Part shown: in pieces, positions 9,848 to 49,949 of the stretch | How the letters are laid out: each line of letters opens with the position of its first letter | How positions within the stretch are numbered: the first letter of the stretch is position 1 | Position numbers and translations under genes: made by a program | The notes under the pieces: generated by a model | What the model saw: only the letters and a program-made list of their open reading frames with translations | Told to the model about the DNA's origin: nothing | The model's database searches: none | Source: Bolinopsis microptera | Lineage: Eukaryota > Ctenophora > Tentaculata > Lobata > Bolinopsidae | Direction: 5' to 3' | DNA: 64,000 nucleotides | Assembly: GCF_026151205.1 (NCBI RefSeq) | Contig: NC_087076.1 | Span: forward strand, 10,392,902-10,456,901

Positions 9848-10572
9848 CACGGAAGAATCACCTCTGAACAATATTAAACAGTGCCTTGTGGAATGAGAGC
9901 ATGCTTTGACTTCCTTTTGCTTCGTTTTGTATACTGTTTTAGGGGCATATTAAATATTTAAACTACTAATGGTCCCCTTAATATTAATATTAATATTGTG
10001 TTAAGTAAGCGTTATAAGTTATAAAAAGACATGCCAACAGATATTAACACCTCGTACGGTTCGATTTATTAAGAAACAGTATTCAGGTAAATGTAATCGT
10101 GTACCCATCTTGTGCTTTCTTGAAAAGTTCCGTATAGTTCTTGATTCAATACGATAGAATTTGAGATAACTCATGCATATAATACAGAATCTGATCCTCA
10201 GCATACTATAAATATACATTATTCTTCATTATAGAGTGCAAGGTGTCTCCATGAAGATATATGAAATAACGTAATATTATTATTTATCATCTTATTGTCA
10301 CGCCATGTAATACATGTAGTTGTACACACTAAAAGTACACCATATACATCAGTACTCAGAGTTGGTATTTAATTTAACCCGTCTACTCATCAGACAGTGT
10401 TAATCAAGGAAGTGAACACATCACAGCTGTTACTGCAATGTTAGTGAGAATACAGCCCGACCGTTCTTCTTTAAACAATCAGTTTTAACTCAGTTTTACT
10501 CAGTTCTGTCATGCAGTACATTGTACGTGCCTCCTATAACTCGTAATAAGAACAAGTCCACCACCACACTCA

Positions 10573-11581: not shown

Positions 11582-12606
11582 GATCGTCTCCCCAAATGTT
11601 TACCTCACATGCGCAATTTGATCTTTCGAGATCTAACGCCAAACAGTCGAAAATAACTATCGTAAGACAGAAAAGCAGCCGATTCTAGACTGAGGATGTT
11701 AGACTTAAGAAACGGACAATAAGCTGGTAAAGTCAGAACACTTTAACGTCAAATTACACGGTTACAACGAACAATCGGTTTCTAGCTCGAATCTAAGTAT
11801 CTTGTGCACGTTCTAGAGTTATTTCCGGACTCAGTTCGTGGTACGTGGTAATAACTTAATAACTTTCTTACCTGGAGACATTTCAGGTGGACCAGTGATT
11901 GTAGCTTCGTTAAAGTCACGTGACACGTCAATTTAATTAACTGCAGCTTGTTCGATTGTACTCAGCAAAACGCTCGAAAAATATCCGGCTACTTTCAAAC
12001 GACGGAGAGGTCATCCAGGATATATATTGAGAGTGATTATTGATGGTTGCCATGGTGATTTGTGTGGTTAAACCTATTATACATGGATGGTTGTTAAATT
12101 GATCCAGGTTTAATGGGATCTAAATCTATTTTATTCCGGTCACGTGGTACTAAGTCTATAAAGACCGGCTTGTGCTACTAATGAGTAATGATATGCATTA
12201 TGTTGTCTCATATTTATATATTACGATGGACTATTATTTGAAACTTTATGGTTTAAGTTTACTTAGGGAAATGCCTGAAATATTCTACCGTGACTTTTAT
12301 CCGTCAATTATTCGACCACGGAAAATATGACCACTTTTGTGACTTGTTGGTATTGGTAGTTATCAAGAAAGCGCCGAGTGGGTCTATCAGATCGTTTAAT
12401 TTTTTAAAGATCTGAGAATCGCCTTCAAGTAATTTTCCGTTCCAAACTTCTGCTAGAATTCCAAAGAAAAAATGTATTTTCAGATCTATCATTATCAAAG
12501 TAAATTTGAAAATTGTTTACAAATCTATATAAACAATACATATTTCTTACAAGCGAAGCTCGCATCAGTCTACCAACCCACTAACTCTAACCCACCAGAT
12601 AGCCGC
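11582..12606. other. Spacer between divergent genes; likely promoter region
   Basis: Lies between the start codons of the minus-strand coiled-coil gene and the plus-strand ACY1 exon 1, so both promoters are expected here. No further ORF or repeat recognised. The frame of ACY1 exon 1 is open back to 12472, but homology places the start at 12607. Confidence 0.4.
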
Positions 12607-12756
12607 ATGTCAGCTCCCAAGAAATCTCGGATGGAACACTCTCCAGAGGTCCAGAAGTTTGTCGAGTTCCTCAAGATACGAACTGTTCACCCTGACCCAG
12701 CGTACAAAGAATCTCGACTCTGGCTGCTGGACTATGTGGCTGATATTGGGCTTGAG
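12607..12756 (+). CDS. ACY1: Aminoacylase-1, exon 1 (N-terminus)
   Basis: Fifty codons from ATG to a GTAAGC donor in phase 0. The protein text (EVQKFVEFLKIRTVHPDPAY then LLDYVADIGLE) matches the N-terminus of aminoacylase-1, an M20 zinc peptidase that hydrolyses N-acyl amino acids in the cytosol. No other ACY1 exon follows within 27 kb. The next matching piece starts at 39983, also phase 0, and continues the alignment without gap (GLE then VVVDKEYHPGK). Together the nine exons give 405 residues against 408 in human ACY1, which argues that this is the true first exon of that gene with a very long intron. A detached gene fragment or an assembly join is the alternative. Confidence 0.8.
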
Positions 12757-13046
12757 GTAAGCGTTTATTTGAGATGCTTACTGTTATATTTTACCGTTAT
12801 ATGTTATGATCTGAATACTCTCCCTTTTGAAATCAGAGGTTTGATAGTATTTGTCATCAACTTAAATCCCCGCCTTAAGAAAGTGGAACAATAAACTTTA
12901 GTTATTGGTCAGAAATAAACAAATTATTAGGGTAACAACATGTGTAATATACTCAATTACATTAAATTAAAAAATGTACAAAATCATTCTAAGCAATACT
13001 AAACTTGTCAACATTTTAACATTCAAATTTCAACCTAACAAAAAAT

Positions 13047-13586
13047 TCAAATAAAGTAATAAGCGCGCTGTTTCGTCATGACAGAATCATCAGAAGTGAC
13101 AGGTTTGCAGGACAGCTTTCTCTTCAAACCCAGAGTACAGCCCTTCAGCCAGAACACACCACCCCTAACATTTCCAGCTCTGGTTCTCTCTGCTTGACCC
13201 CCGGTTGTGGATCTTCTCCCTTTAGAGGGTTTGGTAAACTCCTTCCTGCTGAGAGTATCCTTAGTGTTCTCGAGGTTACCCGCACTGCTTTGTATTCGGA
13301 TCAGGAAGGGTCGGAGAGATGGGGTCTTGTCAAGAGGAGCACTCTTCCTCTTCTTCTTGGTATCCAGGGAGACGTTGTGTAGTTTCATTGAAGTGGGTTT
13401 GGCAGGGAGGTTAGGCATGGAGACGTGGTGAGATTTCCTGGGGGTTGACATGGAGGTGGGGTTGAAAGGGTTGATGTTGGTGGGTTCCCTGATGTAGAAC
13501 GAGAACACACTCTTCATGTCATCTTGAGGTGAGGTGGGGTCAGAGGAGAGGGTGCCTGACAGGATGGGTGGGAAATATTGGAACAT
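13047..13586 (-). CDS. Orphan basic, Ser/Pro/Lys-rich protein, intronless
   Basis: A 179-residue frame from ATG. It is rich in Ser, Pro, Thr, Lys and Arg with little hydrophobic content. Notable short pieces are SMSTPRKSHHVSMPNLPAK, DTKKKRKSAPLDKTP (a possible nuclear localisation stretch) and SRKEFTKPSKGRRSTTGG. A repeated basic-plus-Ser-Pro pattern suggests kinase sites. No domain recognised. It lies inside the proposed first intron of ACY1, on the opposite strand. It may be a disordered nuclear protein or a chance ORF. Composition and length favour a real gene slightly. Confidence 0.45.
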   Translation of the reverse strand: MFQYFPPILSGTLSSDPTSPQDDMKSVFSFYIREPTNINPFNPTSMSTPRKSHHVSMPNLPAKPTSMKLHNVSLDTKKKRKSAPLDKTPSLRPFLIRIQSSAGNLENTKDTLSRKEFTKPSKGRRSTTGGQAERTRAGNVRGGVFWLKGCTLGLKRKLSCKPVTSDDSVMTKQRAYYFI

Positions 13587-15612
13587 TCTGGGTTGTTAAA
13601 CTGTGAAGTAGGTTCAAGTCAGAAGTACTGGTTGTGAAGTTATAGAAGTAAGAAGTGAGTAAGTGAAAGTTGGTGCTGGTACAACTATCTAGAGGTTCTT
13701 GTAGAATTATGTTCGAATCAAGGAGGTGGTAAATATTAGCTAGCAATAATTAGACAATGTTGATATTGTTTTTGCTCACATTTATACCACCCTTCTTGAT
13801 AAGATCACGTGATACAACAAGGAGTTATCAGTTATCAGATGTCAGACCGGACCTGATGATCAGCTGGCCTGAATCTCTGCAATTTGGAAGCTAGTGATTG
13901 GCTGGTGTGTCAGGTGAAACCAGCTTGTCTGATCAGATCACTTGATCTGATATTCCTCAGCTGTTTGTTTATTTCAATGTAATTCCTTACTCATTCCATG
14001 AATAACTGAATCAAGAAAGCAAATGCACTTAAATTCATGGCCTTCACAAATAATTACAAGTAGCAATTCCATACGTACCTAAAATTGCTTTGTGTGCCAC
14101 AAATTTGGCGAATTTCGGGTGATTATTTGAAACATTTGCGGCAAACATTTTGTTAACCGAATTTTGATATCAGAGGAAAACGGTGGTAAATAAATACTGT
14201 GTGTAAGTTAAACCTAGCGGGAGTAAGGTTGCATTCGTCCCATGATATTCAATTTACAACATCGGAAACATTATCAAGATGAGCTAACTGGCACTCATAA
14301 GGGGATTGTTCTTCTCAAAAGGTGACAACTGTTGGTATTTCAGGAATGTCAGTGTTTTTATATTATTATTATTGTGTGAGACTCCTGCCCCTCAATTCCT
14401 CTAGTCTCCTTTCATCTTCAATTATTCAACAAGAGCAAGTATCTAACTAATAATCCCAGAATGTGTGTTTTCTGTCTGTCTGTCTGTCTGTCTGGCTGTC
14501 TGTTTGTAATTTCCGAGCGGCTTAATCAAGAAAACGGTAAGAGTTGCGGGACTGATTTTTTCAAGAAAGTGCCGACAAAACTCTGACGAAGTTAAATGAT
14601 AAAGGTTTTTTGGGGTGAGCGTCGTCGACGTTCTGCTGAGGATCCCATAGGATTTATGCACCCTCCCGGTCCACCCAGCCGAATGCTCGAGAAATCGTGT
14701 GTGAGGGTTAAATGGGGAGCTGTGCAATATAGTACAGCGAAAAAGCAAAAACTCAATGAATGGTTACCGTAATGGGTGCCACATGCCTAGCATGAAATAT
14801 TTACCTACTTACTTACACTTGTGTAGGTCTGTAGAAGCATTAGAATCGGGCGTTGCCTGCCACAGGCTATCCCGAATTTAGAAGCTTGCTTTCATCAAAT
14901 CGGTCGTTGGTAAGTGGTTTAATTGATGGTTTTGTACCACAAATGTTACATAAAATGGCTTGGGCAGAACGGTAAGAGTTACGGGGCTCGCATATGTAGC
15001 TGCATAATTAGTGTAATTGAGTTACCCGAGTAAGATTCGCTGTCTATATTATAATCTTATTAGGGGAGGGGGCACTGTTTGGACTGCAGAGAGAGAGTTC
15101 ATACTTTCATACGACAATGTTATGCGTGTTCACAAAAATGATAGGCGGGTGTGGTGTTAAGGGTTAATTTCTATTGATTATTGTTTAAGATACTATTACT
15201 ATTGTTTAAGATACCATTGGATACGTAAGGGCACTCCGACTAGAATTGCTCACCTAATGCGGTTTTTGACTCAACGGGTAAATGCTCCTACCCTATTTAA
15301 CTGCGGCAGTGAAATCCCGGCCGAAGGCCGGGTTACACTAGTAAACAATAATAGCGTTTGCTAATAATTCTGCAGTTTGTTAATGTTCAGTTTTCACCCA
15401 CGGTCCACTCATGGTCCACAGAGTATCGATTGAACTTCAAAAATAAGGGATTTATTTGATAAATTCGATAAACTATTTTGGAGGAATAATATTGTTAACT
15501 TTGAAATCAATGCTAAACAATAACCAGCCTCGTGGTATACTGCTTATCATTGACTCAAACTCAAGACTACAATAATTTACAAAATCTAAATATATTATAA
15601 ACAGTATCTTAC
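13587..15612. other. Intronic/intergenic; TGTC microsatellite
   Basis: No gene recognised. A (TGTC)n tract lies at about 14474-14510. Around 14530 and 14970 the phrase GGTAAGAGTT is repeated in similar contexts, and 15318-15340 has a short perfect palindrome (CCCGGCC-GAA-GGCCGGG). These hint at decayed mobile sequence, but I cannot delimit an element. Confidence 0.35.
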
Positions 15613-26494: not shown

Positions 26495-28833
26495 CTAATG
26501 CCGCACAACATGCATATAATCTTTCATTTTATCTAACAGATCTAACATGTCACCATAGAATTCTGTTTGTAATGTCTCAACCCCTCTTGGGTATAAAATA
26601 ACAGAGCAGTGAACACGTGCTCTTGATATCACCAAATATAGATTAGTCAGATCTAATTTACTGAAACTTCTCATTTCGTGTATTAAAACCACTGCTGGCC
26701 ACTCAGCAGAGTAGCTGTATTTAATGCTACACGGTGAAATCTTGCGTCTTTCATTACTGTAAGGAGATCGCTTATTAACAGTTTCTTCAATTAATGTTTT
26801 CACATCATTGTAAGGAGTGCTATAATAAATTATACCTATATTAGAATTATTTAATCCTTCTAATTTGTCTAATTCTTCATTCAATATCATGCCAATAATT
26901 TCTACGTTAAAATTATCTAAAACATGCAAAACAGCCTTTGGTCCATGTATGAAATGTCCAGGTTTTTGTAGCGGTAAAATCATATCTACAATATCCATTC
27001 TACTTGAAAACAATGTAATGAATCGATCTCTTATCACAGATAAGATATTAGATATATCAAACGTATTTCTCAGATTCATTGATAATGCAGCCTTCTGATT
27101 TATCTGTAATTTTTCAGAGATAACCATGGCTAAGTTCATAATATCTCGTGTGTCCACAAAGCCGGAAGCCTGAACCATATCACAAGCTATCCAAACATTA
27201 CAATTCTCTGATAATCCTGTCAGCGTTTCCATCAAAACATCACATTCCTCCGATGTACTATAATATAACACTCTCTGTATGTCGTCTATCAACAAATTAA
27301 AACCTCTAACTGAACTGACCATGCATGTAAACTGTGTGATGTTGAGATAACCTGTTATCATCACTATGACCACCCTACATACACTCTGTGATATGAGATA
27401 AGAAACTTCAGTTGTGGTGTGATTATCTTTATCTGTCATTATCTCTTCGTATTTAACACCAGCTTTGACTAAAGCATGTTCGTAGATCCATGAGTTGTTT
27501 CCTTTTCCAGTAACCCCGAATAAAACAACTTTATTTTCCTTGTTAGATTGTATGAGCTGTATCATTTTACCGCTTAAGATAACAGTTTTTCCCACCCCTG
27601 CGGGTCCGTTGATCCACAAGAGGTTCTCGTTAGAATGAAACACCTTGTTTTGTTCTGTTGTAAGGTTTTGAACTCCAAGATAGTTTTTGATAACATTTGG
27701 AGCCTTAACAACTCCTGGATTTTTTGCACGTTTCTTCCCTCCCCTCGATTCAAAAGTGATGAGTCCCTCCTTAAGACGCCTATCAATGTTTGTTATGCAC
27801 CTGGCCAAACTACATCTCGATTGATCGCAGTTATTCTTGTCAGTAGCCCAGATAGCCAGCAACATATTTCTAACTTTTTGATGATTATCTGGCACGGAGC
27901 CAACAGGATTTTTGCTGGACATGGCTGTGCTTCTTGTTGGTCCACCCTGCGCTTTTTTGGCTGATTTTATAGCATTTGTTACGTTGTAACTCCACCAGAC
28001 ACTGAAATTAGATATGTCCCTATCTGAGCTGTTATCTGAGATGTTATCTGTACTATCACTGCCACCCAACAAACAGCCTATAAATCTGGAAAAACAATTT
28101 GGTTGAACCGATGTTTCGGTAGGTCTTGATCCCCAGAAGTTATCGTGCATGTAATTGTGACCCTGAATGTCTTCTTTAAAGATAATAGTAGATATTTCAC
28201 AATCAGTTAGATGTAATTCCGTCTTCTTGATACACTGGAATTGTCCTTTAAAATGTTTACTGAAGTTAGGATACGCTGTGAACTGCAAAATGGTTGCGTA
28301 CTCATCAATAGATTTTACCAGAGAAGCTATCTTATTTCTCTGCTCCAGTGACTTTCGAAACGTGCCAACCAATGCTCGGAACTGTTTGTCACACGCAGCT
28401 TTATCAATCACTTCCAGTTTAGGGTCAACATGTGACATGTTTTTCACTTCGATGACTACACAAAAATCCTCACCAAGAATAACGAAATCACTCTCGCCTT
28501 CCCTGTTGCATGGATTCTTGCACCCTCTGCACTTATTTTTGTCCCAAATTTGACCTCCATCACACAAACGATACTGATGGTGCGTGAACTCAAAATTATG
28601 GAGAACGATAACATTTCCATTGACTGTTTCCAAAGCCCTATAAGCCACAACTTCTGCTGCATAATCAGACTGACGTTGTAGTTCGTCTCTGAAGCTAGGA
28701 CCACACCCCAGTTGGTCCTAGTCAGGATATATGTCGATATATGTTTGATCGGGTGCTGGGGGAGCATTATGGGTTTGTTAGTGGAGCAGTATTTGTCGAA
28801 CATTTCTCCTCCATTCTTCAGGTAGTTGTCCAT
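26495..28833 (-). CDS. NERD-like nuclease plus SF1 helicase/ATPase fusion, intronless (one apparent missing base)
   Basis: The long frame (717 codons to the stop at 26495) has no ATG at its start. A second frame begins with ATG at 28833 and overlaps it near 28693-28721. One extra G in the GGGG run there joins them (MDNYLKNGGEMF... into FRDELQRQSDYAAEVVAYR). N-terminal features resemble a PD-(D/E)XK/NERD nuclease: AAEVVAYRALE, ESDFVIL (about residue 53 of the long frame) and CVVIEVKN (about 68). The C-terminal half is a P-loop helicase: Walker A INGPAGVGKTVIL (about 350), Walker B-like NLLIDDIQ (about 453; DD in place of the usual DE), CDMVQ, SMNLRNT, AEWPAVVLI (motif V-like) and YLVISRARVHCSV (motif VI). 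Residues 190-340 are Ser-rich linker and Cys/His-containing. Such fusions are common in prokaryotes and in some invertebrate families. Role unknown; nucleic-acid processing or defence is plausible. Confidence 0.65.
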
Positions 28834-31863: not shown

Positions 31864-33223
31864 GGGGGGGGGGCCAATGGGTATTTTTTTTGTGAAACTT
31901 GATTTCGAGATAGCAATTGACCAACAAAGTAAGACCAGTGACCGAACTTTTGAGGGGGTCCCGGACCCCAACCGCCAAACGGTGCGCGCATGGCAGCCAC
32001 GCCCATATTTGGTCCAAATTAGGCCCAATTTAGCCAAATACCCTGAACATGCCCAAAACCAAGATTTATGGTGCTCTACTTGTAGCTAGTGGTCTCCTGA
32101 ACTCGTATATGAAATTTCATCAAGATTGAACAAAAAATGACTGAGTTATGAGCCAAAAACCATATGCCCATATTTGGGCATACGCACCAAATTTGGTAGA
32201 TTTCGTCCCATAAATTGGTCAAATATCAATATTTTTGAATGAAACTTACTTTATATGAAAGGTAAGCCTAAACTACATATTATCTGTAAGTTATAGCTTT
32301 ATATCTGTTTAAATGTGGATACTAAGGCGAAAAAACCACAAAAAATGAACTAAATTGCCCATATCTCGGTTCGCGATATTTGCGGAATTGATCTCATTAA
32401 AATTGTAACAACTCAATCAGTTTTCAAAATTTTTGCATGAAATTTTCGGAATCGACTCGAAATCGCATTTCCACCTTATTTTAAATACGGATTTTTGATT
32501 TAGGCCTCCAAAAAAATTTGGCGGCCAAATTCCAAAATTATCTCACAAAAATTCAGAATTTGGCCGCCAAATTTTTTTGGAGGCCTAAATCAAAAATCCG
32601 TATTTAAAATAAGGTGGAAATGCGATTTCGAGTCGATTCCGAAAATTTCATGCAAAAATTTTGAAAACTGATTGAGTTGTTACAATTTTAATGAGATCAA
32701 TTCCGCAAATATCGCGAACCGAGATATGGGCAATTTAGTTCTTTTTTGTGGTTTTTTCGCCTTAGTATCCACATTTAAACAGATATAAAGCTATAACTTA
32801 CAGATAATATGTAGTTTAGGCTTACCTTTCATATAAAGTAAGTTTCATTCAAAAATATTGATATTTGACCAATTTATGGGCCGAAATATACCAAATTTGG
32901 TGCGTATGCCCAAATATGGGCATATGGTTTTTGGCTCATAACTCAGTCATTTTTCGTCCAATCTTGATGAAATTTCATATACGAGTTCAGGAGACCACTA
33001 GCTACAAGTAGAGCACCATAAACCTTGGTTTTGGGCATGTTCAGGGTATTTGGCTAAATTGGGCCTAATTTGGACCAAATATAGGCGTGGCTGCCCTGCG
33101 CGCACCGTTTGGCGGTTGGGGTCCGGGACCCCCTCAAAAGTTCGGTCACTGGTCTTAGTTTGTTGGTCAACTACTATCTCGAAATCAAGTTTCACAAAAA
33201 AATATCCATTGGCCCCCCCCCCC
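31864..33223. mobile_element. 1.36-kb near-perfect palindrome (foldback element) at a TTAA site
   Basis: The entire segment is an inverted repeat: two arms of about 680 bp that meet near 32545 (GAATTTGGCCGCCAAATT and its complement) with a spacer of roughly 25 bp. The arms differ at only scattered positions. The termini are G-runs followed by CCAATGG, and TTAA flanks both ends (31860-31863, 33224-33227), as in piggyBac-type insertions. No transposase is encoded; short ORFs in both arms are mirror images. A one-arm degenerate relative lies at 35640-35930, and another fragment at about 23525-23625. The transcript would be a very long hairpin. Confidence 0.8.
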
Positions 33224-33742: not shown

Positions 33743-34444
33743 ATGACAATAACTCTCACGTATTGGTCTGTTAGAGGCCTGGCTGAACCTATCAGACACA
33801 TCCTGCGATACCAAGACGAGCCCTGGGAGGAGAACACCCTACAAATAAGTAACGAGGGGTTTGGGGACTGGATGAAAATGAGAGATGCGGATGATATGCC
33901 TTTTGGAAACCTGCCTTTCATTGAGGATGACGGCAAGAAAGTAACTCAGAGCATAACTATCATGAGGTATCTCGGAAGGAAGTTTGGTATGTTTCCAACT
34001 GACCCGGATGACATTGTCCTTGCTGAGATAGTTGAACAGGAGCTATTCGACCTGCGTAACAAGATGAGCAGCGCTTGTTACAACCCTTACAATGCTTTTG
34101 GCCCTTTCCCCGGTTCAGAAATAGGCAAGTTCGACCACGAGTTCCTGAAGGGTCGATTTGCTCAGCGAGTCAGCGAGAGGGTTCCCAAGTTTAATAAGAT
34201 CCTGACCAAGCCCTTCTTGCTCGGAGACAAACCTTGTTATGTGGACTTTCTCTTGTACGAGTTTCTCGATCATCTGAAGAGTTTCGTGCCCCATACATTT
34301 GAAGGAAATGATAACGTGCTCGCCTTTATGAAGAGGTTTGAGGAACTGCCAAATCTGAAGGAATGGTTTGAAAGTGAAAAGTACAAAGAAGGGAACTACA
34401 TTAACGCTCCCATGGCAGCCTGGCATGGCGGAAAGAAAGAATGA
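33743..34444 (+). CDS. Glutathione S-transferase, Mu class, intronless
   Basis: A 233-residue protein from ATG to TGA. The N-terminal thioredoxin-like domain has LTYWSVRGLAEPIRHILRY with the catalytic Tyr at position 7, then NLPFIEDDGKKVTQS (the glutathione-binding cis-Pro and QS). The C-terminal helical domain includes MSSACYNPYN, FLLGDKPCYVDFLLYEFLD and the Mu-type ending PMAAWHGG. It conjugates glutathione to electrophiles in the cytosol. Length is slightly above the usual 218, with extra residues in the ALFDL-GPFPGSEIGK region. Lack of introns suggests either retroposition or intron loss. It sits within the proposed ACY1 first intron on the same strand. Confidence 0.93.
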   Translation: MTITLTYWSVRGLAEPIRHILRYQDEPWEENTLQISNEGFGDWMKMRDADDMPFGNLPFIEDDGKKVTQSITIMRYLGRKFGMFPTDPDDIVLAEIVEQELFDLRNKMSSACYNPYNAFGPFPGSEIGKFDHEFLKGRFAQRVSERVPKFNKILTKPFLLGDKPCYVDFLLYEFLDHLKSFVPHTFEGNDNVLAFMKRFEELPNLKEWFESEKYKEGNYINAPMAAWHGGKKE

Positions 34445-37077: not shown

Positions 37078-37632
37078 ATGAGGATCATCTTGATGATGGT
37101 GTTGGCAGCTTGCCAGTTAACTGGAGTTACTACTCAAGTTCAACACATTCTACCATGGTCACCAGGGGAGATATCAGCACTGAGAGTCACACAGTCGAAG
37201 ACGTTGGACAATAATCAGAAGTTTAAAGAAACCTTTGCGGTCGACAGGGATCTAATGACTGAATCAGCTGCCGAGGCAGTCGATGGAGAAGTCTGGTTCA
37301 AAGTAGAGTTCGGGAAAAGTCACTTCATTCACAAAATTGTGATCTACCAGGTTTTCTACAACGCTGACTTGTACGACAATAATTGGTGTGTGAAGACCAT
37401 GAGCAACTACATATCTTGCAAAGGCAGTCATAATAATGTAGATGTGTCACTGTACCAAGAAGAAGAACACCAGAAGTCCTGTGGAACCCTCCAAGTGACA
37501 CACGGACTAGAAATCTCAGATCAGACGTACACCTTTTTCTGTGATGTTGAAGGGGATTCTATACGACTCTCAAAGGAAAGTGGACATATTTCAGTTTTCG
37601 AGATAGTCGTGACCAGCTCACAGTGTGAGTAA
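37078..37632 (+). CDS. Secreted protein with discoidin/fucolectin-like domain
   Basis: A 184-residue frame. The N-terminus is a signal peptide (MRIILMMVLAACQLTGVTTQ). The remainder resembles a galactose-binding-like (F5/8 C or fucolectin) beta-sandwich: VTQSKTLDNNQKFKETFAVD, AAEAVDG, VWFKVEFGKSHFIHKIVIYQ, then a Cys-rich middle (NWCVKTMSNYISCKG) and ISVFEIVVTSSQC. Five Cys lie after the leader. The last codons contain a perfect donor (CAG T|GTGAGT) in phase 1, so this may be only the first exon of a longer modular protein, as in the PLAT-sushi genes where extracellular modules also end in phase 1. I could not locate a following exon. Domain call moderate. Confidence 0.65.
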   Translation: MRIILMMVLAACQLTGVTTQVQHILPWSPGEISALRVTQSKTLDNNQKFKETFAVDRDLMTESAAEAVDGEVWFKVEFGKSHFIHKIVIYQVFYNADLYDNNWCVKTMSNYISCKGSHNNVDVSLYQEEEHQKSCGTLQVTHGLEISDQTYTFFCDVEGDSIRLSKESGHISVFEIVVTSSQCE

Positions 37633-39204
37633 TTAAACCTTAAGGCTCTTCCCTGTCCCCAACTCTTCCCTACTCCTGGCTCTTCCTTATCCCTGATTCT
37701 TCCCTGTCCTCAACCCTTTCCTACTACTGACTTATCCTCGACCAAACCCCAATGCTAGACCTCAGGAATACCATACTGATTTGTCCATTGTTAATGGACT
37801 AGCCCGGCGCGCGCTACAGTACCTCGTAGCACTTGCCTCGGGCCATTTCGAGAATAAAGCGGCGCGCGCTACTTCGAAGAAATTTAGACCAGTAACATCC
37901 GTCAACATCCTGATTCCCGGATTAATTTATACTTACTTTAACTCAGATATAACAGAGTTTTTAAACTCTTCGTCATTAGATGCTTGTCCTATATAATGTG
38001 CACAGATATTGTAGGGACAGATATTATAGGGACAGAAACCACAAGTTATTACCTGATAATGTAAGTACCATTCTGGAAGGTAATACAAATAATTTGATTC
38101 ACACAATATATAGGAAGAATATCAATAACTAAAGACAAATTTTCCTCTCGTAATCATATTAATATTATCATAATCAACCATGGTGCATGTAGACCCAGAG
38201 AAAGGATCCACACTGCTGTACAGATCTTGTGTCCAAATTTTGAAGACGAGGATCCTGTTTTTAAAGGATTCTTTACTATCATGATCTTCATGGTCGTTAA
38301 AACGGCTTCTAGCAAGATAGTCACTGTACAAGCAAGCCAGCGTACATATTCCTGGAGATTACAGAAAAACTTACCCACCACCCAGCGTTAAAAAAATCAA
38401 GGCGAGAGTTTTGGAAGTACTACGAAGACTGTCTGAAGTAGATCGCAGATCGCCAAATGTTGCATAACTGCGATTACAATTCTGTGTAGTTTGATAGCTT
38501 TGTTTTGAAAGTAACTATAAGAATGATGCTGTCTCATATGAGCGATGTCAGCAAGGCTGTTAAAGTCCATAATAACAACATATTTAGCTTCACGTCGTTT
38601 CGAGTTCCATAGCGCGGCTCTTTATTTTCAGTTCCTGCTGCGCTGAACATCCAGTCGGTAGTAAAATTCTTTTCGCGTAGATTTGTGTGTACAATCAATC
38701 TGTTCATTAAAAAATAGTTAAAAAATGTAAGACAGCAAATCTCGCGTTTCCGATTTACCGGGACCATTTCCTTTACTACAAACGGAGCTTTACATACCTT
38801 GTATGGACAAGCAAAACCCAATTTACCGCGAACCCTGATTTACTGCGGCTGCCCCTTTCCCCAATTCCGTGGTAAAGTACTGTAGTCTGAATCGCCCGGT
38901 CATAGCAAGCGAAACAAAGAACAAAATTACCTATCATTTGAGAAGGAGATTACTACATTTCGCCTTTCGCTGACTGAAATTGTGTTGGAAATGGTAGATA
39001 GTTTGAGAACTCAGCTTTTCTTACTACAGGCCCCCCCCCCCCCCCCCCCCCCCTACTACACTACAACTACTTCCTCGTATTAGCACCAATATCAAACAAA
39101 TTGATGAAGATATCAGCACAATGCGGATCGATTATGCTGTTCTTTAACCACGAACAGACCCGGCCTATTATTTTCCATTGTATGTGCTGGTCAGTATAAT
39201 CCAC

Positions 39205-39263
<59 letters not shown>

Positions 39264-39982
39264 CGACTATTGTCTTGGCGAGACAGTGTGTCACTCCAGA
39301 ACACTGCTTTGCAATAAACAGATCAAAGTATGGGTTTCTAAGAAAATCATCTGATTTTTTCCTTTTCACCCTTTTGAAAAAAGGCAATAGTGAAAGGTTA
39401 CGAATGGATGTTTTTGCAGAAAAACGTGGATTTTGGAGAACGAGATAGGTGGGTTTAAATATGTCGTCAGTCCTTTCGTTAGTTACCATGCGACGAAAAA
39501 GTTGCGCGCGCGCGAGGATTGCTTGCGGAGATGTGATGTATAGATAGCCTGTGATCTAAGAATGCGCGGCGCGACTGTGTTTTAATGTATATGATGCATG
39601 TAATGTATAATATTACTATTAGGTAATACGCCCAATTTGTACGTGGCACGCGTAGTGTATTGATGTGTACACGAGTATAGTTTACCTTAGCTGATAATTT
39701 CTTGAATTACAGATACAAGTTAAGTTCTACGGCAATTGAACTGAATTTCAAGTGTTTCCCGTATTTGATGCATAATTTATCAATATTATTATCATGAAGA
39801 TTGAAGTGAGCTGATTGGAGCTTATACTTAAATTTATAGTAAATGTGAAATGGAAATCTAGCGTCCGCCAAAACGAAACAACGGGCGCAATTCTTGTTTG
39901 GGTTGTAAGGAATTTGGTTATTAGAGAAACCTACGGTTCCATTCACTTGTTCTACATCTGATAACCTTCCTCATTGCCCCAG
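37633..39982. other. Intronic region with poly-C and (TA)n tracts
   Basis: A C-run lies at about 39031-39053 and (TA)n at about 39209-39260. A minus-strand stretch at 38122-38360 opens after a good acceptor and reads in a protein-like way (FKIWTQDLYSSVDPFSGSTC), but I found no partner exons. No gene supported. Confidence 0.4.
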
Positions 39983-42900
39983 GTGGTTGTTGACAAGGAG
40001 TACCACCCTGGAAAGCCTGTTATCGTAGTCAAACTCCCCGGAACTAACCCTGAACTACCTTCCGGTTTGTACCTTATAAATTTGAGGAAATTGTGAAACT
40101 TTCTCTCCAAAGTTTCTTGTTCTCTTGTTTAGTGTTTTCACAATGTTCTTTCTGCTTTTCTGAATTATGATGTTTATTTTAAAATTGTGTTCCTTTATAA
40201 TATCAATGGCTTGCAAACAGACGATTGTGCTCCTTTATAATATCTTTGGTTGCAGTTTTGTTGAACTCCCACGTGGACGTCGTGCCAGTTGAGCAGGACA
40301 AGTGGATTGTGGACGCCTTCTCGGGCCACATCACTGACGATGGAAAGATATACGGACGAGGCACCCAAGTAAGATTTGCAAATATTATTTTGAGTGTAAT
40401 TCATACATATTTAAAATGAAACGGTAGTTTCTTGTTAACCGTACTCTTTGATTAATTTTTTCTCATAATATAGCTATATACTTTAGTTTCCATTCATAGT
40501 TAAAACAAAGTTAAGCAGTCCTATTTGACCGCGAGAAGCCGGTTAGCTCTAAATTTTAAAAGTTTAAAAGTTCTTAAACCGTCACATCTCATTTTCCATA
40601 TTACGCTGTCACTACTTTTTTCTTTCAGGACATGAAGTGTGTGTGTATACAGCATCTAGAGGCTGTTCGACGGATCAAGGATTCTGGTACTAAGTTGAGG
40701 TAAGTGTACATATTTTGCATATTCTGTATCATCAATCTGTCAATCTAAGGTACCTTCAAATTGTATTTCACCCGGAAATTTGGAAACAGGTTTTAGATTT
40801 TTGCGATTTTTTGTTCGCGTTTAAAAGTCGAGTAATTATGATACCGGTGCAACACAAAGTTGGCTTGAGCACAATATCACGGACCCAAATTGATGCTGAT
40901 ATCAGGTTAAATGTGGTTTATATCAAGAAGCTGAGCCTTTTTTTGTAGTGAATAATGGAGCATATATCATGGGATGAGGGGTAAATAAATTAAGATATTG
41001 AGTGTAGTTTCCTCACCCCAGGCGAGACCTGTACCTGTCCCTGGTGCCGGACGAGGAGATCGGGGGTATGACCGGGATGCAGTTGTTCGCACTGTCCGGG
41101 GAGTTCAAGGAACTAAATGTTGGATTGGCACTGGATGAGGGTTTGGCAAGGGAGGACGATGCTGTGACCGTGTTTTACGGAGAAAGGCACAAACAGTGGA
41201 CAAATGTAAGATCTCCTTTAGTGTTTAGATCTGAATACTGGTAGGGAAGTGAACTTTTGTTTCTGACACGTGACAGAAATTAGCCGATTAGCTTCCCTCA
41301 TTGACTAATAAAAACTCAGAATCAACGTCACGTGTTTGATATAATGCTACGTCTTCCCCGTCAGTTTTCAGATCGATAGACTAGGAGCGACCTCTATGAT
41401 AAAAAATACTATGTATGATTGATAACGTATTCCAGAGCCAATACGTTAATCATAATGCTCTGACAGCATAAGCAAAGCTTTTTAAAGATTTGACTGTATC
41501 ATGCCCCAAAAATCATTACGGTCACCATAAAGTTCGACAAAGTCATGTATAATAGATCCATACTTCAAACATTAACGCACTGCCAAATCTCAGAAATGTT
41601 GATAACAAAATTAAAATGCTACATAAACACCCACAAATCTTTCTACGACCTGAAGCATCAACAATCAACAAGGCGGCTGGTACTTTCTCTTTTATGTGCA
41701 TAATAGTTTCCCAATATTGCCTTACTTGACTTAGTGAAAGAAGGGACCGTTAAAATACTAACAATTTTGTTTTCTTCCTTCGCATACTTGCTATCTCAGT
41801 CCGAGGACTCTATTCCTGTCTTTTGTACCGGAGGATGGAGTTGGTGCAGGACATGGGATGAAATTATTAACTGAAAGTGAGGTCTTGAAGGCTAATAAAT
41901 AGGCGCTACTTTGATCTAACTCTAACGTTTTTTAAATAAAACCTGTTTCCAAAATTCCAAGAGGGCTGTCCGGATTTTTTTCAAAACCAGTTGATTTTAT
42001 GGACTTTATGTTTAAATTTTTCTGACTGTTACAATGCACTCCGTGACCAATGTGAAATTTATGATTATCAGCCAGTGGACGGGGAGTGACAGTCATTCAA
42101 AATAGGGATGTATAGTATACACTATGACAATACCCATCATTTCAAAAGTTCGGGAGGAATTAGTTCCTATTATTTCAAACACTTGGAGAGGAACTGTTCC
42201 TATCATTCCATAAAATGGAGAGGTATTTGTACCTTTCATTCTAAAAACTCAGGAGGAATTTGTATCTATCATTTGTGCCGGATGAAGAAACAGATAGTGG
42301 ACTGGGTATGGGTTTGTTGTGTCAAAGTGAGGAGTTTAAATCGTGGAATGTTGGTATGGCAGTGGATGAGGGCCTGGCCAGAGAGAACAATGATATGGTG
42401 GTCTTCTACGCAGAGAGACACTGCTACTGGACTGACGTGAGATTATTTGAAAACTTGCTGAGAGTTGTAAAGCTGTTGCTTGGTTTTGTGTTCTTTGCTC
42501 GATGTTCGTTCATTTAACATTTTGTTGTCTTTGAGGTACATCACATTAATGTGCTGTTACGCATGAAGTTTTTGGAATAGAAATCTTGAAGCGTGAAATT
42601 TGATATTTACAAGTTAAACAGGGGTACAAGAATGTTTTGGCTGCTGATAATATTGCGAGAGCTGTACTGGACAAGGACAGGATATTTGATGGTCGTTTTT
42701 AGTTGTTCAAGTGATCACGGGGACTTCGGTAATGGACGAACTGTGCATTTAATCCAAATACTGTCTATCTTGAGATGTTTATCTTGAGGTGTCGTTTCTG
42801 ATTTCCCCTCAGTAACCGACCAAGCCCTGTTTCCAAATTTCACAGTTTTACGTGATTTAGTGCGCAAACCAAGTTCCTTTGGCTGGTTACACTGACATTA

Positions 42901-45900
42901 AGCGGGACCTCTAAAACATTACCCTTTGCATACTTACTATCTTAGTTCAAGACTCTATACCTTTCTTTGTACCAGTGAAGGTGGAGGCCTTCAGGCCTTG
43001 GAATGATATTATCAACTGATTAAAATACTTAAATAGGCACAACTTTTATTTAGCCCCTTTCAAGGAGGGCCCAAGAGGTATTCGTACCTTGCATTCTAAA
43101 AACTCAGGAGGAATTTGTACCTATCATTCGTGCCGGACGAAGAGACGTACACTGGACATGGTATGGGTTTGTTGTGTCAAAGTGAGGAGTTTAAATCGTG
43201 GAATGTTGGTATGGCAGTAGATGAGGGCCTGGCCAGAGAGAACAGTGATATGGTGGTCTTCTACGCAGAGAGACACTGCTACTGGACTGACGTGAGATCA
43301 TTTGAAAACTTGCTGAGAGTTGTAAAGTTGTTGCTTGGTTTTGTGTTCTTTGCTTGATGTTGGTTCATTTAACGCATGATTGATTGAAAGCTGGACGGTG
43401 CATGAAGTTTTGTATGTTCATATGGAGCGAAAACGAGAAAAGCTAGTGCAAGGTGGTATGCATAAACATTCACCATCTTTAAAAACCGCACACGTACCAC
43501 AGCCACAACACACATCATCACTCGATTGGATTGTCTTTTGAGTGAAATGTCCCCGATCGTATGAAATGCAGTTTATCCGGTTACATTTCTCTTTTCCCCA
43601 CCAGTTCATGAACCAGGAGCCTGTCCTGAGATCGCTCTTCTTCGGAGCGATCTGGTCTCACATACACATCGTTGTAAGTCGCTGAGTGGCGCAGCTTCTT
43701 GACTTGACATAGCACTTGATGGACAGCGCTGTGACTTGATAACGAAACCTAGACTGGGCGCTTCGAATTCTCTTTACGAATCTTTCCTATTCTAGTAACC
43801 TGCAGAGTAGGTTTTACTTTTAGTCTCCTGGAATACCTCCTGTACCTGCTCTTCAACATTCTCGTCCTTCTGTTCTGGCAGTACGAATAATACAACGTTC
43901 TTGCTCCGATCCTCCTCCTGGACAACGGACTTGCTTCAGTGAAGCCGGATCTGCCAAACTATCAGTCTGGCAGACCATAACGTTCTCTGCAGCAGCTTCA
44001 CTGTATGACTTGAATTGTTCTTTCAAGTTGCAATCCACTGAAGACTTGACCAGTCACAGTCTTTACTGCGTCGATGTGCTTGTCCTTGTTGTTGATAATC
44101 TGCTCCTGTAAACTGATTACCCACGTCTGATTCTCGATTAGCTGGCTCTTGATGGAGCTCAGCTTAGCCTTCAGCTGTTTCATTTTTTCCGCCTGAAACC
44201 GCACAAAGTGGAACGATTCATAAAACAATGCGTCCTTCATCGCACGTTTACACACTGCTGACGTAACGTCAACTGGAGCAGTGCACCCGACTTGTTCCAT
44301 CGCTCTATGTATCCAAGCAGAACATTTCCCGAGCAGGTCCTCCAACTCCTTGTCGTTAACAGTAGCCATGGCTACAAGCACATGGAGTTTGTCTTGTCTT
44401 TGAGGCACATCACATTAATTTGATGTTGCGCATGAAGTTTTCAGTAAAATTTGATATATCAATAGGCTTTTCTAGAAACTTAAATGTTAAACAGAGATAC
44501 AAGAACATCTGGGCTGCTGAGTATAGTGAGTACTGGACACAGACAGGATATTTGATGGTTCCGAGCAATCTTCAGGATACAAATTACGGTCATCTTCACT
44601 TGTTCAATCCCGTGGCTTCGGTAATGGACGAACTGTGCATTTTAGGCTGGTTACACTAACTATTAGTAAAAAGTGGGACCTCTAAAACCTTATATTTTGC
44701 ATACTTGCTATCTCAGGAGGACTCTATTCCTGTCATTTGTACCGGAGGAGGAAGTTGGTGGAGGACATGGAATGAAATTGTTAACTGAAAGTGATGACTT
44801 GAAGGCTCTGAATATAGAAATAGCACTGGATGAGGGTCTTGCCAGGGAAGATGGTGCCATGACCGTGTTTTACGGCGAAAGGCATGTCTTCTGGCCTCAA
44901 GTAAGCTAAGCTTTAAGGTTGTACGAAACTTTCCGTGCCTTACAATCAACAATTTCTCCGATTGTCCTTCTTTCTCAAATCTCCGACAATGATAAATTTG
45001 GTGTGTAATATGTGGTGTTCTAAAGTCACTAATCAATGATAACTACAAATCTACTAGGATATCACAATTTGATTCAATATCTAAAAGTTGCATGGTATTG
45101 TATTGCTTAGGGCCACCGAACCCTTCAACTCCATACTAATCACTATTTAATTGGCCTCATTTTAGTCGCCTTCTTAAGTGCATATGGTCATCACTCAGCG
45201 CTGTTAGTGTTAGCTTCAGTGGCTATACAGTGGTGGTTCAAGTTTTCAATGCGGCCTGATCAACATGATTCCTTTCTGAATTTTCTAAAATATATAACTC
45301 AAGACTTATATCTCTGCTCTTTTTATTTGTATTATCATATTTGCAACCTATTTTTGTTTTAATGATATACGTCGTCAATCTGTTGTTTTATATGAAATGA
45401 AATGAATGAACATTTATTTTATAAAAATTTAAATGTAAAAGTATTCTGTTGATTTCTTGAATTGAAATATTATTGAGCTGGAGCATTTTTCTTCATTTAT
45501 TTTTCATATAAACAGCACAATTTTCTTACATATTAGATGAATGATAAAACTACACATTTTTATTTCTTTGCAGTGAATTCGACAAAATATGTAAAATCCA
45601 CAAAGCTGAAGATAGGTTTTTGAGGCTAACATTTTAGCCTTATTTATTATTATTAATATTAATATTATAAATATCTCAAGGCCCACTACAAAAGAGAAAA
45701 CATGTAACATCGATGTGCCATCAATCGTGTGTAACACAAAGTTGACTATACATATATTATCTTGATGTAACAGCTTGATCAACTCTCCAGGTGACGTTCA
45801 GTGGCAACCCTGGTCACGGTTCACGATTTATCGAGAACACGGCCGTCGAGAAGATGAGGAAGCTGGTCAACAAAGCCTTGGACTATCGTGAGAATCAGAG

Positions 45901-48669
45901 GAAGAGGTTAATGGCTGCTGTTTTTAAAAAACAGTCGAATTAAATCTGCGGTTTAATGATCTTGAAGTTTTCTTAACAAACTATTCTTGAGTAAGAATCT
46001 GGAGTTGAACCAACTCTTTTCATTTTGTTTTCCTCCCGATTTATTAAATATGATAAAACTAATCAACATCCCCCGTGCAGGTTACTAGCTGACGCGTGTA
46101 TGACTTTAGGGGAGGTGACCACAGTAAATGTGACCATGATCCACGGTGGGACTACACCTAACGTGGTTCCTAGCGAGTTTACTGTCACTCTAGACTGCAG
46201 GTTAATACTTCATGCTATCTTATATTAAAACTTGAAAAATCGTCTCCGTAGGTAGTTTTATTATTCATTATTTGTAACCAACAATTATAACCATGATCGA
46301 TATCTTAGAACGGACCTGTAACCAGGGTTTACATTTTCGGTCCAAAATATTATATTACGATAATCGATAAATGTTTAGAAATAATCGAGATATTACCGGT
46401 TATCGGTTGATAGTGTGGCCATCGAATCTGAGCTCATAAAAGCGCATATAAATATAAGCGCAGTAAACAGTCTATTTAAAGTAATGACGAACTATGACCA
46501 TGAAGAATTTATTATTTAACCTACTTTTGATTCTAAACTGCTAGATCACCTCTCAAATAAGTTGCCGTAAGAAAAATATTATTATTAGCACTAATTTTAA
46601 CCGCTATGTTTCACACAGAGTTAGTCACGAGTACGCGTTCGAAGAGTTCAAGAACCTGCTTAAATCCTGGATTGACGAAGCTGGCGGAGGGGAGATGAGC
46701 TTCATTGCTTCGTCCAACAATGACGCACTCTCCTCAATCGATCCTAAGGACAAATGGTGGAACGCCATAACTGGTTAGTGTCTCAAAACCCGAATATCTT
46801 TTTTTATGTTTTTGTTCTTAGTTGTAGTGAACGTACGGAACGTTCACTAAAAATAGTTTGTGAACGCGTTCGCTAAAAGATTTTAACGTTCGGAACATAA
46901 GGAACGTTAATTGATATGCCGGATTGGACATAGCCCAATTATCCGGCAAAGTACTAGCGTTTCCATTGCCACTTGCCGACAGGATTTACCACGTTGTAAC
47001 AGACAATCCAAATGTCAATAAATCTCTACGACGCTTAATCGAAGCTGATTATGAACACATCATAGGATCATGCTGTGTAACCCACCAGTTCGATCTACTT
47101 GCCGAGGATGTCAGGAAGTTGAGCTGGACCAAGGAGACATTGTCGAATTGTAACATATAGTTACAAATGTGAAGAATCATGACATGATTCTAAAAGTAAA
47201 AACTTTAAGAACCCATATTCATGTCAATTTGCTAAAACCAGGGGAAACTCGGTTTGCCACCCGGTTTATTATGTTAGAGAGACTGAAGGGTTCCAAGGAT
47301 ACTTTGATTAAGACTTATATTGATCCAACCCTTACTGAGTCTGTTAGCAATAAAAGTAATGCTACAAGAATTTGTTTGAGTGCGCTAAAGATTTAGTGTT
47401 TGACCCCCATTTCTGGATAGAAGTCGACTATTTATGCTCAATTCTCGAGCCGATAATAGTCTTGCTTAGATTTTCAGACAATAGTCTTAAGATTCCTGTT
47501 GGTTTCATCGGTGTAATTTATTACAAATATTATCTGTTCACCTTAAAGTTAGCAAATTTTTGATTTTGCTTTCCGCAATAGAAACCATAAAAGTGATATG
47601 GTTAGTCTTGCCAACAAAAGGTGGCTCGAGCTCCATTCCCCCTACATTCAGTAGGGTTTTGTGCTCACCCGGTTTATCAGGGATATGATCAGCACACGAA
47701 TCAGGATGTCTGGAAGGAGTTTCTAGATGTCATGGACACGTGGTGTGACGGCGCAACAAAGTAGAAGATAATTTCGCAGTACACGTTCTACCGAGAGAAA
47801 AGAGGCTTATTCTCTACTGACGCTGCCTCAAGTTTTAGCCAAGATTCTGACGATCCAGTCTCTTGGTGGAGCAACTTCGGTTGTGAGGTACCCGAACTAC
47901 AGAGTTTTGCAATGAAAGCGCTGTCGCAATCGACATCAGCCTCACCCTGTGAGACGAATTGGAGCTTGTACGACTGGGTTATAAACAAAAAAATAAACCG
48001 CCTCACAGTTGACAAGCAGCGAGACCTTATTTATGTTAACGCAAGTTTGCGTCTTATATGAACAATTCACGAATTATGGAGCAATAATTTCATTACTATT
48101 TGCTATACTTACTAGTGACTTATTTTTATTCATTATTGTCTATTTACTGTAACTTATCAAAATATTGACTAACGTTCACTAACGTTCACAAACGTTCACT
48201 ACAAAATGATTGGAACGTACGTTCAGTACGACTAAGTTCAGCGTTCACTACAACTAAGTTTTTGTTTACGTTTATTTTTCTGGGTATAATGGTTATCTTT
48301 ATTTTTCTGGGTATATTAAAGTATATTAAAATTTAGGTTTTTTGCAATTATAAATTGTTCGCCTGCGATATACTTTAATATAGTTATCCTCCCCCCACCC
48401 CCCCCCCCCCCACCTCCCTTAACCATAGAATACATCCTTCAGGTGCGTGCAAAAAGCACTCCGTCAAACTGGTCCCGGAGATATTCCCGGCCGGAACAGA
48501 CTCCAGGTACTTGAGAGCTCAGGGGATCCCTGCGTACGGGTTCTCCCCCATTAACAACACTCCCATCCTTCTCCATGATCATAACGAGTGGCTTGGTGTG
48601 GACACGTTCATGCGGGGGATTGATATTTTGGGGACAGTGATACGGGACTTAGCTAATGTTAGTGGTTAA
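39983..48669 (+). CDS. ACY1: Aminoacylase-1, exons 2-9
   Basis: Exons: 39983-40064, 40256-40368, 40629-40699, one of four exon 5 copies (41022-41205, 42253-42436, 43108-43291, 44717-44900), 45791-45906, 46081-46200, 46619-46773, 48443-48669. All junctions are in phase, and with exon 1 at 12607 the protein is 405 residues. Active-site features are all present. These are the zinc ligands in LLNSHVDVVP, the bridging Asp in DMKC, the catalytic/metal Glu pair in VPDEEIGG, the ligand region ALDEG, the dimerisation-domain His in GNPGHGSRF and the C-terminal HDHNE. ACY1 is a cytosolic M20 zinc enzyme that deacylates N-acetyl amino acids. The alternative exon 5 copies would change about 61 residues around the active site. 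An ORF1 pseudogene sits between exon 5 copies and a hAT element in the last intron. Confidence 0.9.
41800..41925 (+). pseudogene. Decayed exon 5 copy b of ACY1
   Basis: Follows an intact-looking acceptor (CTATCTCAG) with a 3-base insertion, then reads RTLFLSFVPEDGVGAGHGMK, closest to copy e. The Glu-Glu pair has become Asp-Gly and a TAG stop appears at 41900-41902, after which similarity fades. It cannot encode an active enzyme. Confidence 0.85.
42946..43040 (+). pseudogene. Second decayed exon 5 copy of ACY1
   Basis: After CTATCTTAG the sequence tracks copy b (GACTCTATACCTTTCTTTGT) but with frameshifts and loss of the Glu codons. It lies just upstream of copy d, as copy b lies upstream of copy c, so a two-exon unit was duplicated. 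Confidence 0.75.
43540..44371 (-). pseudogene. LINE ORF1-like pseudogene inserted in the ACY1 exon array
   Basis: Starts MATVNDKELEDLLGKC near 44371, continues as coiled coil (EKMKQLKAKLSSIKSQLIEN), then shifts frame near 44000. Further fragments match the ORF1-like gene at 24.9 kb: EEDRSKNVVLFVLPEQKDE near 43900 and NDVYVRPDRSEEERSQDRLL near 43640. Several frameshifts and a stop show decay. The duplicated ACY1 intron sequence (GCATGAAGTTTT) flanks both sides, at about 43400 and 44430, placing the insertion between exon 5 copies d and e after the exon duplication. Confidence 0.75.
46817..48258 (+). mobile_element. Decayed hAT transposon in the last intron of ACY1
   Basis: Bounded by inverted termini CTTAGTTGTAGTGAACG (left from 46817, right ending 48258) and an exact 8-bp target duplication TTTTTGTT (46809-46816, 48259-48266), the hAT hallmark. 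Subterminal GTTCACTAACGTTCAC motifs repeat at both ends. Inside are frameshifted pieces of a hAT transposase on the plus strand: VTDNPNVNKSLRRLI, LLKPGETRFATRFIMLERL, DPHFWIEVDYLCSILEPI, and a C-terminal dimerisation region DDPVSWWSNFGCEVPELQSF with SPCETNWSLYDWV. Stops and frameshifts make it non-functional. Confidence 0.92.
48300..48415. repeat. Short foldback of the AGTATATTAA family plus C-run
   Basis: GGGTATATTAAAGTATATTA at about 48310 faces GATATACTTTAATATAG at about 48370, forming a small inverted repeat related to the 22.2-23.9 kb arrays. A run of about 20 C (with interruptions) follows at 48391-48412. Confidence 0.65.
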
Positions 48670-49949
48670 GAGATAGTCTGATGTTTCTGGAACTATGTAC
48701 TCTGGGAAGCGGTAGCTCTGTCCGAGTTGTCCTAATGACAGAGAACTTTAAATCGAAGATTCGGATATCAACAGTACATGGTACTGAGGACATGTGGGAT
48801 AAATACCACAATTCACGGGACATATGGGACAGTACCACCCTTGACTAGGGAGATACTTTTGGATAGCTATTATGACTTTTATATTACTTATACTCTACGG
48901 CCTACGCGCAATTATTTTATTAATTTGACATCGTTCAACCTTTTTAACTCACATTTATACTTATAGCCGTGTGGCATTTATTTTAAAATTCGATTTTGAT
49001 AGAATAATGGATAATTCCTGAATGGTTTAAAAAATTAATTATTACAGAAAACAGAGGTTTTCTTTTTCCGAATTATCGAAGAATCACAACAGTAACAAAA
49101 ACAATCTCACAAATAAGCCGGAATATTAACACCTGTGAAGCACTAAGAATCAGATAACTGCATTCAGACTTCCTTATCGGACTTAATTTGGGCGGACATT
49201 ACGTGGATGGACATTATTCTGGTTGGTTATTAAATTATGAGCGCACATTTTCAACTTCAAGTTCAATACAGTTAACTGTGGAATTGTATTTTCAAACTTT
49301 AATTAACGTGATTTACATTTTACATTATGAGATTTACATTAAGTGAGAATCTCACTGTGAGATCCCAAAGCCTCGAACATGTTCCCTGACCATGGTCCTT
49401 ACCGAAACATCTAGTTTTACCAAAACATAATATGGGCATGAGTGATGAGGACGCGTGTTCAATTTTCCCCAAAACTCGAGAAGCACGCATTCTAATATTT
49501 TCTCATATGAGGGTGTTTTGGAATCTGAGTTCAAATCAGTTGATATAATATGAGAGAATTCGGCGATAAAAACGAGTAATTTTGCCTGTACTTTAATCAA
49601 GATTTATATAATTTGAGACAGCTTACATCCACGAAATGTAAAACTAAGTCCTTATTGGAAAACTTAGATCTGGATCGATATAAATTTGAAGGCCTTTTTG
49701 TAAAAAATAGCGATTCTTCATTTTAGCAAATCGTCAAAAATGTACAACAGTAACAAAAAGAATCTGACAAATGAACCGATTTCCAGCATTTAGAAAAAAG
49801 TTATTTAAAGTGTTATTATTAAACATCTACGATAAATAATCAACGCTCACATTTTAAGCATAAAAGAATTTGAATAAATTAGTAAATAAGTGCAAAGGAA
49901 ATTGCAGTTTCTTGCCAAAGATGGTCTCTGATAGCCCAACATAACAGAT
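48670..49949. other. Convergent 3' intergenic region
   Basis: Lies between the stop of ACY1 (+) and the stop of FKBP8 (-), so both 3' UTRs are here. No other gene seen. Two weakly similar stretches (ACAACAGTAACAAAAA) occur at about 49090 and 49745. Confidence 0.4.

Follow-up and report, generated by a model that had tools for sequence, protein, structure and literature searches.

How a single gene comes to hold four versions of one catalytic exon, and how it would choose among them, is the question raised by ACY1 (aminoacylase-1) of the lobate ctenophore Bolinopsis microptera. The gene lies in a stretch of 64,000 nucleotides (contig NC_087076.1, positions 10,392,902 to 10,456,901), which is called the window here and whose coordinates are used below unless a contig is named. 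In its spliced model ACY1 has nine coding exons on the plus strand, from 12607 to 48669, with exon 5 present as copies A to D (Table 1). The anatomy of this array, its frame and stop logic with intact splice sites, the constraint on the copies (purifying selection in the copies, decay in two relics), the flanking exons matched only once in the assembly and the competing docking/selector complementarity can be read from the genome sequence itself, and together they give good support to the mutual exclusivity that a sequence-only reading of this DNA had proposed. We consider it probable that the locus is a mutually exclusive array through which one part of the catalytic core is exchanged, and that competing RNA pairings contribute to the selection of B or C. 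That it contains a docking/selector switch of the Dscam type, operating in a ctenophore and controlling which catalytic core a metabolic enzyme receives, is in our judgment an evenly balanced proposition.

The four intact copies claimed earlier were found at their coordinates with shared AG/GT borders. Each is 184 nt long, has an acceptor in which ag is followed by G, and ends in a donor gtaaga (A), gtgaga (B and C) or gtaagc (D); the common phase of the copies (2 in, 0 out) was borne out by the spliced models. Since pairs of copies are identical at 34-58 of 62 residues, chance is excluded as the source of their likeness, and what is observed are homologous exons of equal length and phase lying between constitutive exons, the arrangement by which a mutually exclusive exon cluster is recognized. 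When the reading frame was computed for the 16 combinations of copies in genomic order, the four single-copy transcripts kept the frame from exon 4 into exon 6 and ended at the normal stop, each model giving 405 aa. When exon 5 is skipped, the frame meets a stop one base inside exon 6 and 390 nt ahead of the last junction; with any of the 11 multiple inclusions, the stop falls 500-913 nt ahead of it. Premature stops are found in 12 of the 12 combinations other than single-copy ones, which agrees with the proposal that skipping or multiple inclusion would shift the frame of the protein. By the usual rule of nonsense-mediated decay, stops this far before the last junction mark an mRNA for decay, and these 12 faulty products would be its predicted targets.

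The identity of the enzyme follows from the model with copy A, which is identical to the NCBI protein 'aminoacylase-1-like isoform X1 [Bolinopsis microptera]' (P0001, a protein cluster of six sequences); the name 'isoform X1' is the sole hint at further annotated isoforms. The copy-A isoform, the only one submitted to the TIGR01880 (Aminoacylase-1) scan, obtained 476.8 bits and is above the curated cut-off of 338.6. Human ACY1 (1q7l) is of the same enzyme family and has the same catalytic residues as the Bolinopsis protein. Hydrolysis of N-acyl amino acids, the reaction characteristic of this family, is a putative activity of each isoform.

The sequence-only reading had itself raised the alternative of several complete ACY1 genes collapsed in the assembly, to which a tandem placement of allelic copies can be added. 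When the 264.65-Mb assembly was translated in six frames and searched with P0001, 14 matches had E <= 0.001. Twelve of them are exons of this locus, with exon 5 matched four times and each other exon once. The thirteenth is a further, inverted copy of exon 1 elsewhere on this contig, and the fourteenth, the only one outside that contig (C5), lies at C3:3519027-3519359 in a 508-aa frame and resembles residues 68-179 at 39% identity; at this threshold no second match to exons 2-4 or 6-9 was obtained in the assembly. The exon 1 region (10449-15000) has a 96.8% identical inverted copy of at least 4.5 kb about 0.24 Mb away (C5:10644000-10648500), where no other ACY1 exon was matched. This inverted copy of 4.5 kb shows that nearby duplication occurs, and to that extent it favors merged genes. 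On the other side stand exon 5, present four times beside flanking exons present once genome-wide, the 60-65% DNA identity among A, B/C and D, which is far past allelic difference, and the intron sequence between the copies, most of which differs. A merged or allelic origin is for these reasons extremely improbable; collapsed separate genes were ruled out because exons 2-4 and 6-9 were each matched a single time in the genome, and the array stands.

What the copies encode was compared in the numbering of chain 1q7l_A, in which exon 5 covers residues 137-197, with 119 relatives (the best 120 of 2,382 protein matches minus P0001). The exon had been said to carry a Glu-Glu (EE) pair and a DEG region and to vary between copies near the active site, and the named residues are indeed present in the copies: all four retain E147, E148, D174 and E175, as do 119 of the 119 relatives aligned. 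We take E147, E148 and E175 to be the general base and two metal ligands. At position 150, 115 of 118 relatives have Gly, and at position 151 this holds for 118 of 119; in B this pair of residues is Asp-Ser and in C Tyr-Thr. Among the 20 exon columns conserved in at least 95% of the relatives, A departs at none, B/C at four (150, 151, 173 and 189) and D at two (164 and 170), counts that somewhat favor A, since the copy-A protein served as the query for the relatives; outside exon 5 there are 2 departures among 81 such near-invariant columns of the protein. Human ACY1, which is outside the 119, has Ser at 189. The encoded B and C segments are thus predicted to keep the metal ligands and to alter residues adjoining them, and it is plausible, as the least certain part of our reading, that the copies differ in substrate, as the sequence-only reading had suggested, or in rate or regulation.

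These departures could also mean lost activity in B and C, and they lead to a different explanation, in which copy A alone is in use and B, C and D are decaying remnants of duplication. Besides the 4, 2 and 0 departures given above, it is favored by the only model seen among proteins, which uses A, no transcript with B, C or D having been seen, and by the existence of two dead copies that the sequence-only reading had not listed, the relics d1 and d2. A protein search with the copy-B region gave one candidate and no match at E <= 0.001, isoforms more than 90% identical to P0001 being hidden inside the P0001 cluster in such a search. All of this weighs against an array in which every copy is used; Iso-Seq data of Bolinopsis have been reported as generated (PMC10232365). 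Nevertheless, the frames of B, C and D are open and their splice sites and catalytic residues preserved, even though these copies are saturated or nearly so relative to A at silent sites. Copies A, B/C and D have 34-38 of 62 residues in common and are 60-65% identical in DNA, with non-synonymous divergence (dN) of 0.31-0.36 among them; dN is 0.32 for both A-D and B-D, at synonymous divergence (dS) of 2.6 and 2.2, respectively, and synonymous change is saturated for A-B, A-C and C-D. B and C, a 94% identical pair within a 300-bp duplication, differ at 12 of 184 nt (dN 0.031, dS 0.248, dN/dS about 0.12). The excess of dS over dN, present in the B-C pair too, suggests purifying selection on all four copies. 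Relic d1, which is 90% identical to copy D over 115 aligned positions, and relic d2 probably illustrate the appearance of an unused copy at this locus, and B, C and D, which lack such decay, do not look so. Exclusive use of A is therefore improbable in our view, and an array of exons in use is the reading retained.

Regarding the history of the array, local similarity relates B to C, d1 and d2 to D, and the segment 42520-42750 to 44389-44642. This pattern suggests that units with a B-type and a D-type exon were duplicated and that losses came afterwards. Most of the B-C differences (10 of 12 nucleotides) fall within 40 nt around the EE codons (42265-42304 in B, 43120-43159 in C; P about 0.0001), and three of the four residue changes lie within four codons directly after the EE pair (P about 0.019), both tests of clustering having been devised after the data were seen. 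Within the 40-nt patch, copy C agrees with A at some sites and with D at others, as if short patches had been exchanged between copies. Because the nucleotide differences cluster as well as the residue changes, recombination explains the pattern as well as selection does. In a tree built from 22 rows of the 62-residue region, whose bootstrap had not settled, the four copies group with P0002-P0007, presumed to be ctenophore proteins; the branching order of A, B/C and D was not resolved in this tree and the duplications were not placed by it.

Other features of the array introns can be mentioned here. Four repeat units with 33-nt spacing and 64-76% identity occupy 42131-42274, up to and including the acceptor and first bases of copy B, and a similar unit is present at copy C. 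About 1 kb of the C-D intron (43374-44388) is without similarity to the other array introns and contains, on the minus strand, a 136-aa open frame with no Pfam match, possibly an inserted element.

The sequence-only reading had also called for a search of the introns for docking/selector pairs. The search yielded a candidate docking site with candidate selectors for B and C; for D it yielded none. When the five introns were compared pairwise (ten pairs) with an ungapped complementarity score, the two best pairs both involved the intron after exon 4, and the same site within it. The segment 40774-40795 pairs with 41937-41958 in the A-B intron over 22 nt with one mismatch, and 40775-40794 pairs with 42822-42841 in the B-C intron through 16 consecutive pairs, a mismatch and three more pairs (20 nt). 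Neither docking pairing was equaled in 60 shuffles, and among 1000 dinucleotide shuffles the A-B score was reached by one, the B-C score by six and the C-D score by 226. Of real segments taken from other parts of the window, 0 of 102 attained the A-B score and 20 of 74 the C-D score, while wrong-strand controls scored 27 versus 45 (A-B) and 29 versus 32 (C-D). When the docking 22-mer was kept constant, none of 200 shuffles did as well as the A-B intron and none of 200 as well as the B-C intron. A scan of the whole window with the docking probe, on both strands and over 14,214 overlapping positions, ranked the B and C selectors first and third after the self-match.

The same words were sought in the 264.65-Mb genome. 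The 17-mer TTTGGAAACAGGTTTTA occurs twice, at the docking site and reversed at the B selector (control word 0), and the 15-mer AAATTTGGAAACAGG four times, at the docking site, reversed at the C selector and twice on C10, where both sites lie within one duplicated segment (control word 1). Under random placement, the probability of one such word in the proper intron is about 4e-6 for the 17-mer and 8e-6 for the 15-mer, for words picked after the local match was seen. Flanks of 101-136 bp around the docking and selector sites match only themselves in the genome, and an origin of the words from a repeat element appears unlikely; the DNA search skips very common words and in this respect is not full proof against such an origin. 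Rfam gave no match in 38000-49000. As to folding, the minimum-energy structures of 40640-42000 (1361 nt) and 40640-42440 (1801 nt) contain 21 of the 22 docking-B pairs, whereas in that of 40640-42900 (2261 nt) these pairs are dropped and 16 of the 20 docking-C pairs are formed. Both selectors take the same docking bases, so that in silico only one pairing can exist at a time.

Several of the results speak against a switch. Two of 156 real control segments attained the B-C score, and on the wrong strand this intron scored 35 versus 39. A site at 38719, in intron 1 and outside the array, ranked second in the scan of the window and is a slightly stronger partner of the docking site than the C selector (-26.6 versus -25.1); scans of further intron pairs, run without controls, go down to -27.0 kcal/mol. 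The folds were calculated without a shuffle control and stop before exon C. Copy D has no selector for this docking site in the C-D intron, where 47 of 200 shuffles were as good, and the C selector precedes relic d2 and not copy C directly. Such results are what one would expect if the array were mutually exclusive and yet governed by frame-dependent decay and splicing factors alone, with the complementarity being an accident or the fossil of an inverted duplication; this explanation gains further from the choice of the genome-counted words after the local match and from a pairing known from one genome only. It has more difficulty in accounting for two introns that share one 20-nt pairing partner, oriented and placed as in Dscam exon 6, for words that are rare in the genome and flanks that match nowhere else, for the fixed-probe shuffles (none as good, twice) and for a predicted fold that switches between two pairings. 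Therefore, we find an array without a switch unlikely, although it is the alternative to be taken most seriously, and we keep to partial control of B and C by competing pairings.

The copies at either end of the array fit less easily. No strong partner was found between the docking site and copy A, the best one listed near A having -20.5. In place of one selector per exon, as in the Dscam exon 6 type, selectors were found for B and C only. The segment that holds the C selector (42751-42877) is without a counterpart before D, at 44642. Because the selector adjoins the dead d2 and the segment is lacking before D, the exon that the selector served at first may have been of the D type, and it may now serve C or leave C and D competing. 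A docking site located 3', in the intron between D and exon 6, did not stand out, as 11 of 60 to 51 of 60 shuffles were as good (energies down to -27.0, uncontrolled). The pairing of 40923-40937 with 43688-43702 in the C-D intron ranks highest among the plus-strand pairings of that probe in the window (-25.3, followed by -19.6 at another place) and is not significant over the whole intron (226 of 1000 shuffles, 20 of 74 real segments); it could be a weak lead related to D. How D is chosen is among the least certain parts of the reading.

Taking these findings together, we hypothesize that each productive mRNA takes exactly one version of this 61-residue portion of the catalytic core. Whether B or C is taken would be set by the docking site downstream of exon 4, through pairing with one selector at a time. 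A helix with the B selector would place A in the loop, and a helix with the C selector would place both A and B there, the acceptor of the chosen copy being brought to exon 4 in the process. Copy A, 322 nt from exon 4, is likely to be the default, and mis-spliced products would presumably be removed by nonsense-mediated decay.

Table 1. Exons of ACY1, copies and relics of exon 5, and candidate pairing sites, in window coordinates.
Feature	Position	Strand	Remarks
Exon 1, coding part	12607..12756	+	start codon to donor gtaagc; residues 1-50 of P0001; tblastn match and sequence
Exon 2	39983..40064	+	matches P0001
Exon 3	40256..40368	+	
Exon 4	40629..40699	+	last constitutive exon before array; ends in phase 2
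Candidate docking site	40774..40795	+	75 nt after exon 4 donor; sequence only
Exon 5 copy A	41022..41205	+	used by NCBI isoform X1
Relic d1, D-type exon	41803..41893	+	without the catalytic EE, the 3' half and the donor
Candidate selector before copy B	41937..41958	+	21 of 22 pairs with docking site
Exon 5 copy B	42253..42436	+	EETDSG, AVDEG
Candidate selector before copy C	42822..42841	+	upstream of relic d2; 16 consecutive pairs
Relic d2, D-type exon	42945..43019	+	edges approximate; frame interrupted by stops
Exon 5 copy C	43108..43291	+	EETYTG, AVDEG
Exon 5 copy D	44717..44900	+	EEEVGG, ALDEG
Exon 6	45791..45906	+	first constitutive exon after array
Exon 7	46081..46200	+	
Exon 8	46619..46773	+	
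Exon 9	48443..48669	+	with stop codon

Outside the array, intron 1 of ACY1 measures 27.2 kb (12757-39982) and contains nested open frames. These are a glutathione S-transferase frame (33743-34444, plus strand), a 717-aa frame on the minus strand (26495-28648) with P-loop/helicase matches below the Pfam cut-offs, and a 184-aa frame (37078-37632, plus strand) that has a secreted look by eye and no Pfam match. A long inverted repeat was noticed by eye at 32000-33200 in the same intron. Numerous nested intronic genes have been described in another ctenophore (PMC8527503).

Previous studies offer several systems for comparison. In Dscam1 exon 6, the docking site lies after the preceding constitutive exon and the selectors lie by the variable exons (PMC6071210, PMC11802352). 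The ACY1 array resembles the insect cluster in having a docking site after a constitutive exon, competing pairings and, as predicted here, one exon per mRNA, and it differs in belonging to an enzyme and not an adhesion molecule, in having four exons as against 48, in coming from a ctenophore as against an insect, and in having selectors for two copies only, known from the sequence of one genome. By this analogy, the array would work like Dscam exon 6 for two of its four exons. The origin proposed for competing selectors, in which one arm of an intronic stem-loop was duplicated together with the exon (PMC6071210), would fit the ACY1 array. Exchange of the core of an enzyme is already known from coq-2, whose mutually exclusive exons 6a and 6e in helminths, annelids and molluscs remodel the enzyme core and change the substrate (PMC7434440); ACY1 likewise swaps core exons, with four versions where coq-2 has two, and function has been shown for coq-2. 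Switching of a gate motif is known from mammalian ACSL6 and ACSL1, in which a mutually exclusive pair of fatty-acid gate exons alters a short motif (PMC1543647); this is a pair in another class of enzyme, unlike the four copies of a core exon in ACY1. Mutually exclusive exons are also not new to ctenophores as such, since a two-exon cluster has been predicted in Mhc2 of Mnemiopsis leidyi (PMC3912159); that gene encodes a myosin and has two copies, and in the accessible part of the report no docking or selector sequence was found mentioned. A literature search gave no report of an exon array in ACY1, in agreement with the sequence-only reading, which knew of none, and no report of a selector sequence in ctenophores, many papers in subscription journals being outside the coverage of the search.

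If the array operates as proposed, one aminoacylase gene would give rise to several enzymes. The enzyme cases compared here (coq-2 and ACSL), in which mutually exclusive exons alter a functional part of the protein, have two versions each; ACY1 has four, which would amount to naturally occurring active-site variants of a single scaffold. The pairing evidence extends to ctenophores the search for RNA-switched exon choice. Ctenophores have been argued to be the sister group of other animals and, if the reading is true, exon choice by competing pairings would be either ancient in animals or independently invented.

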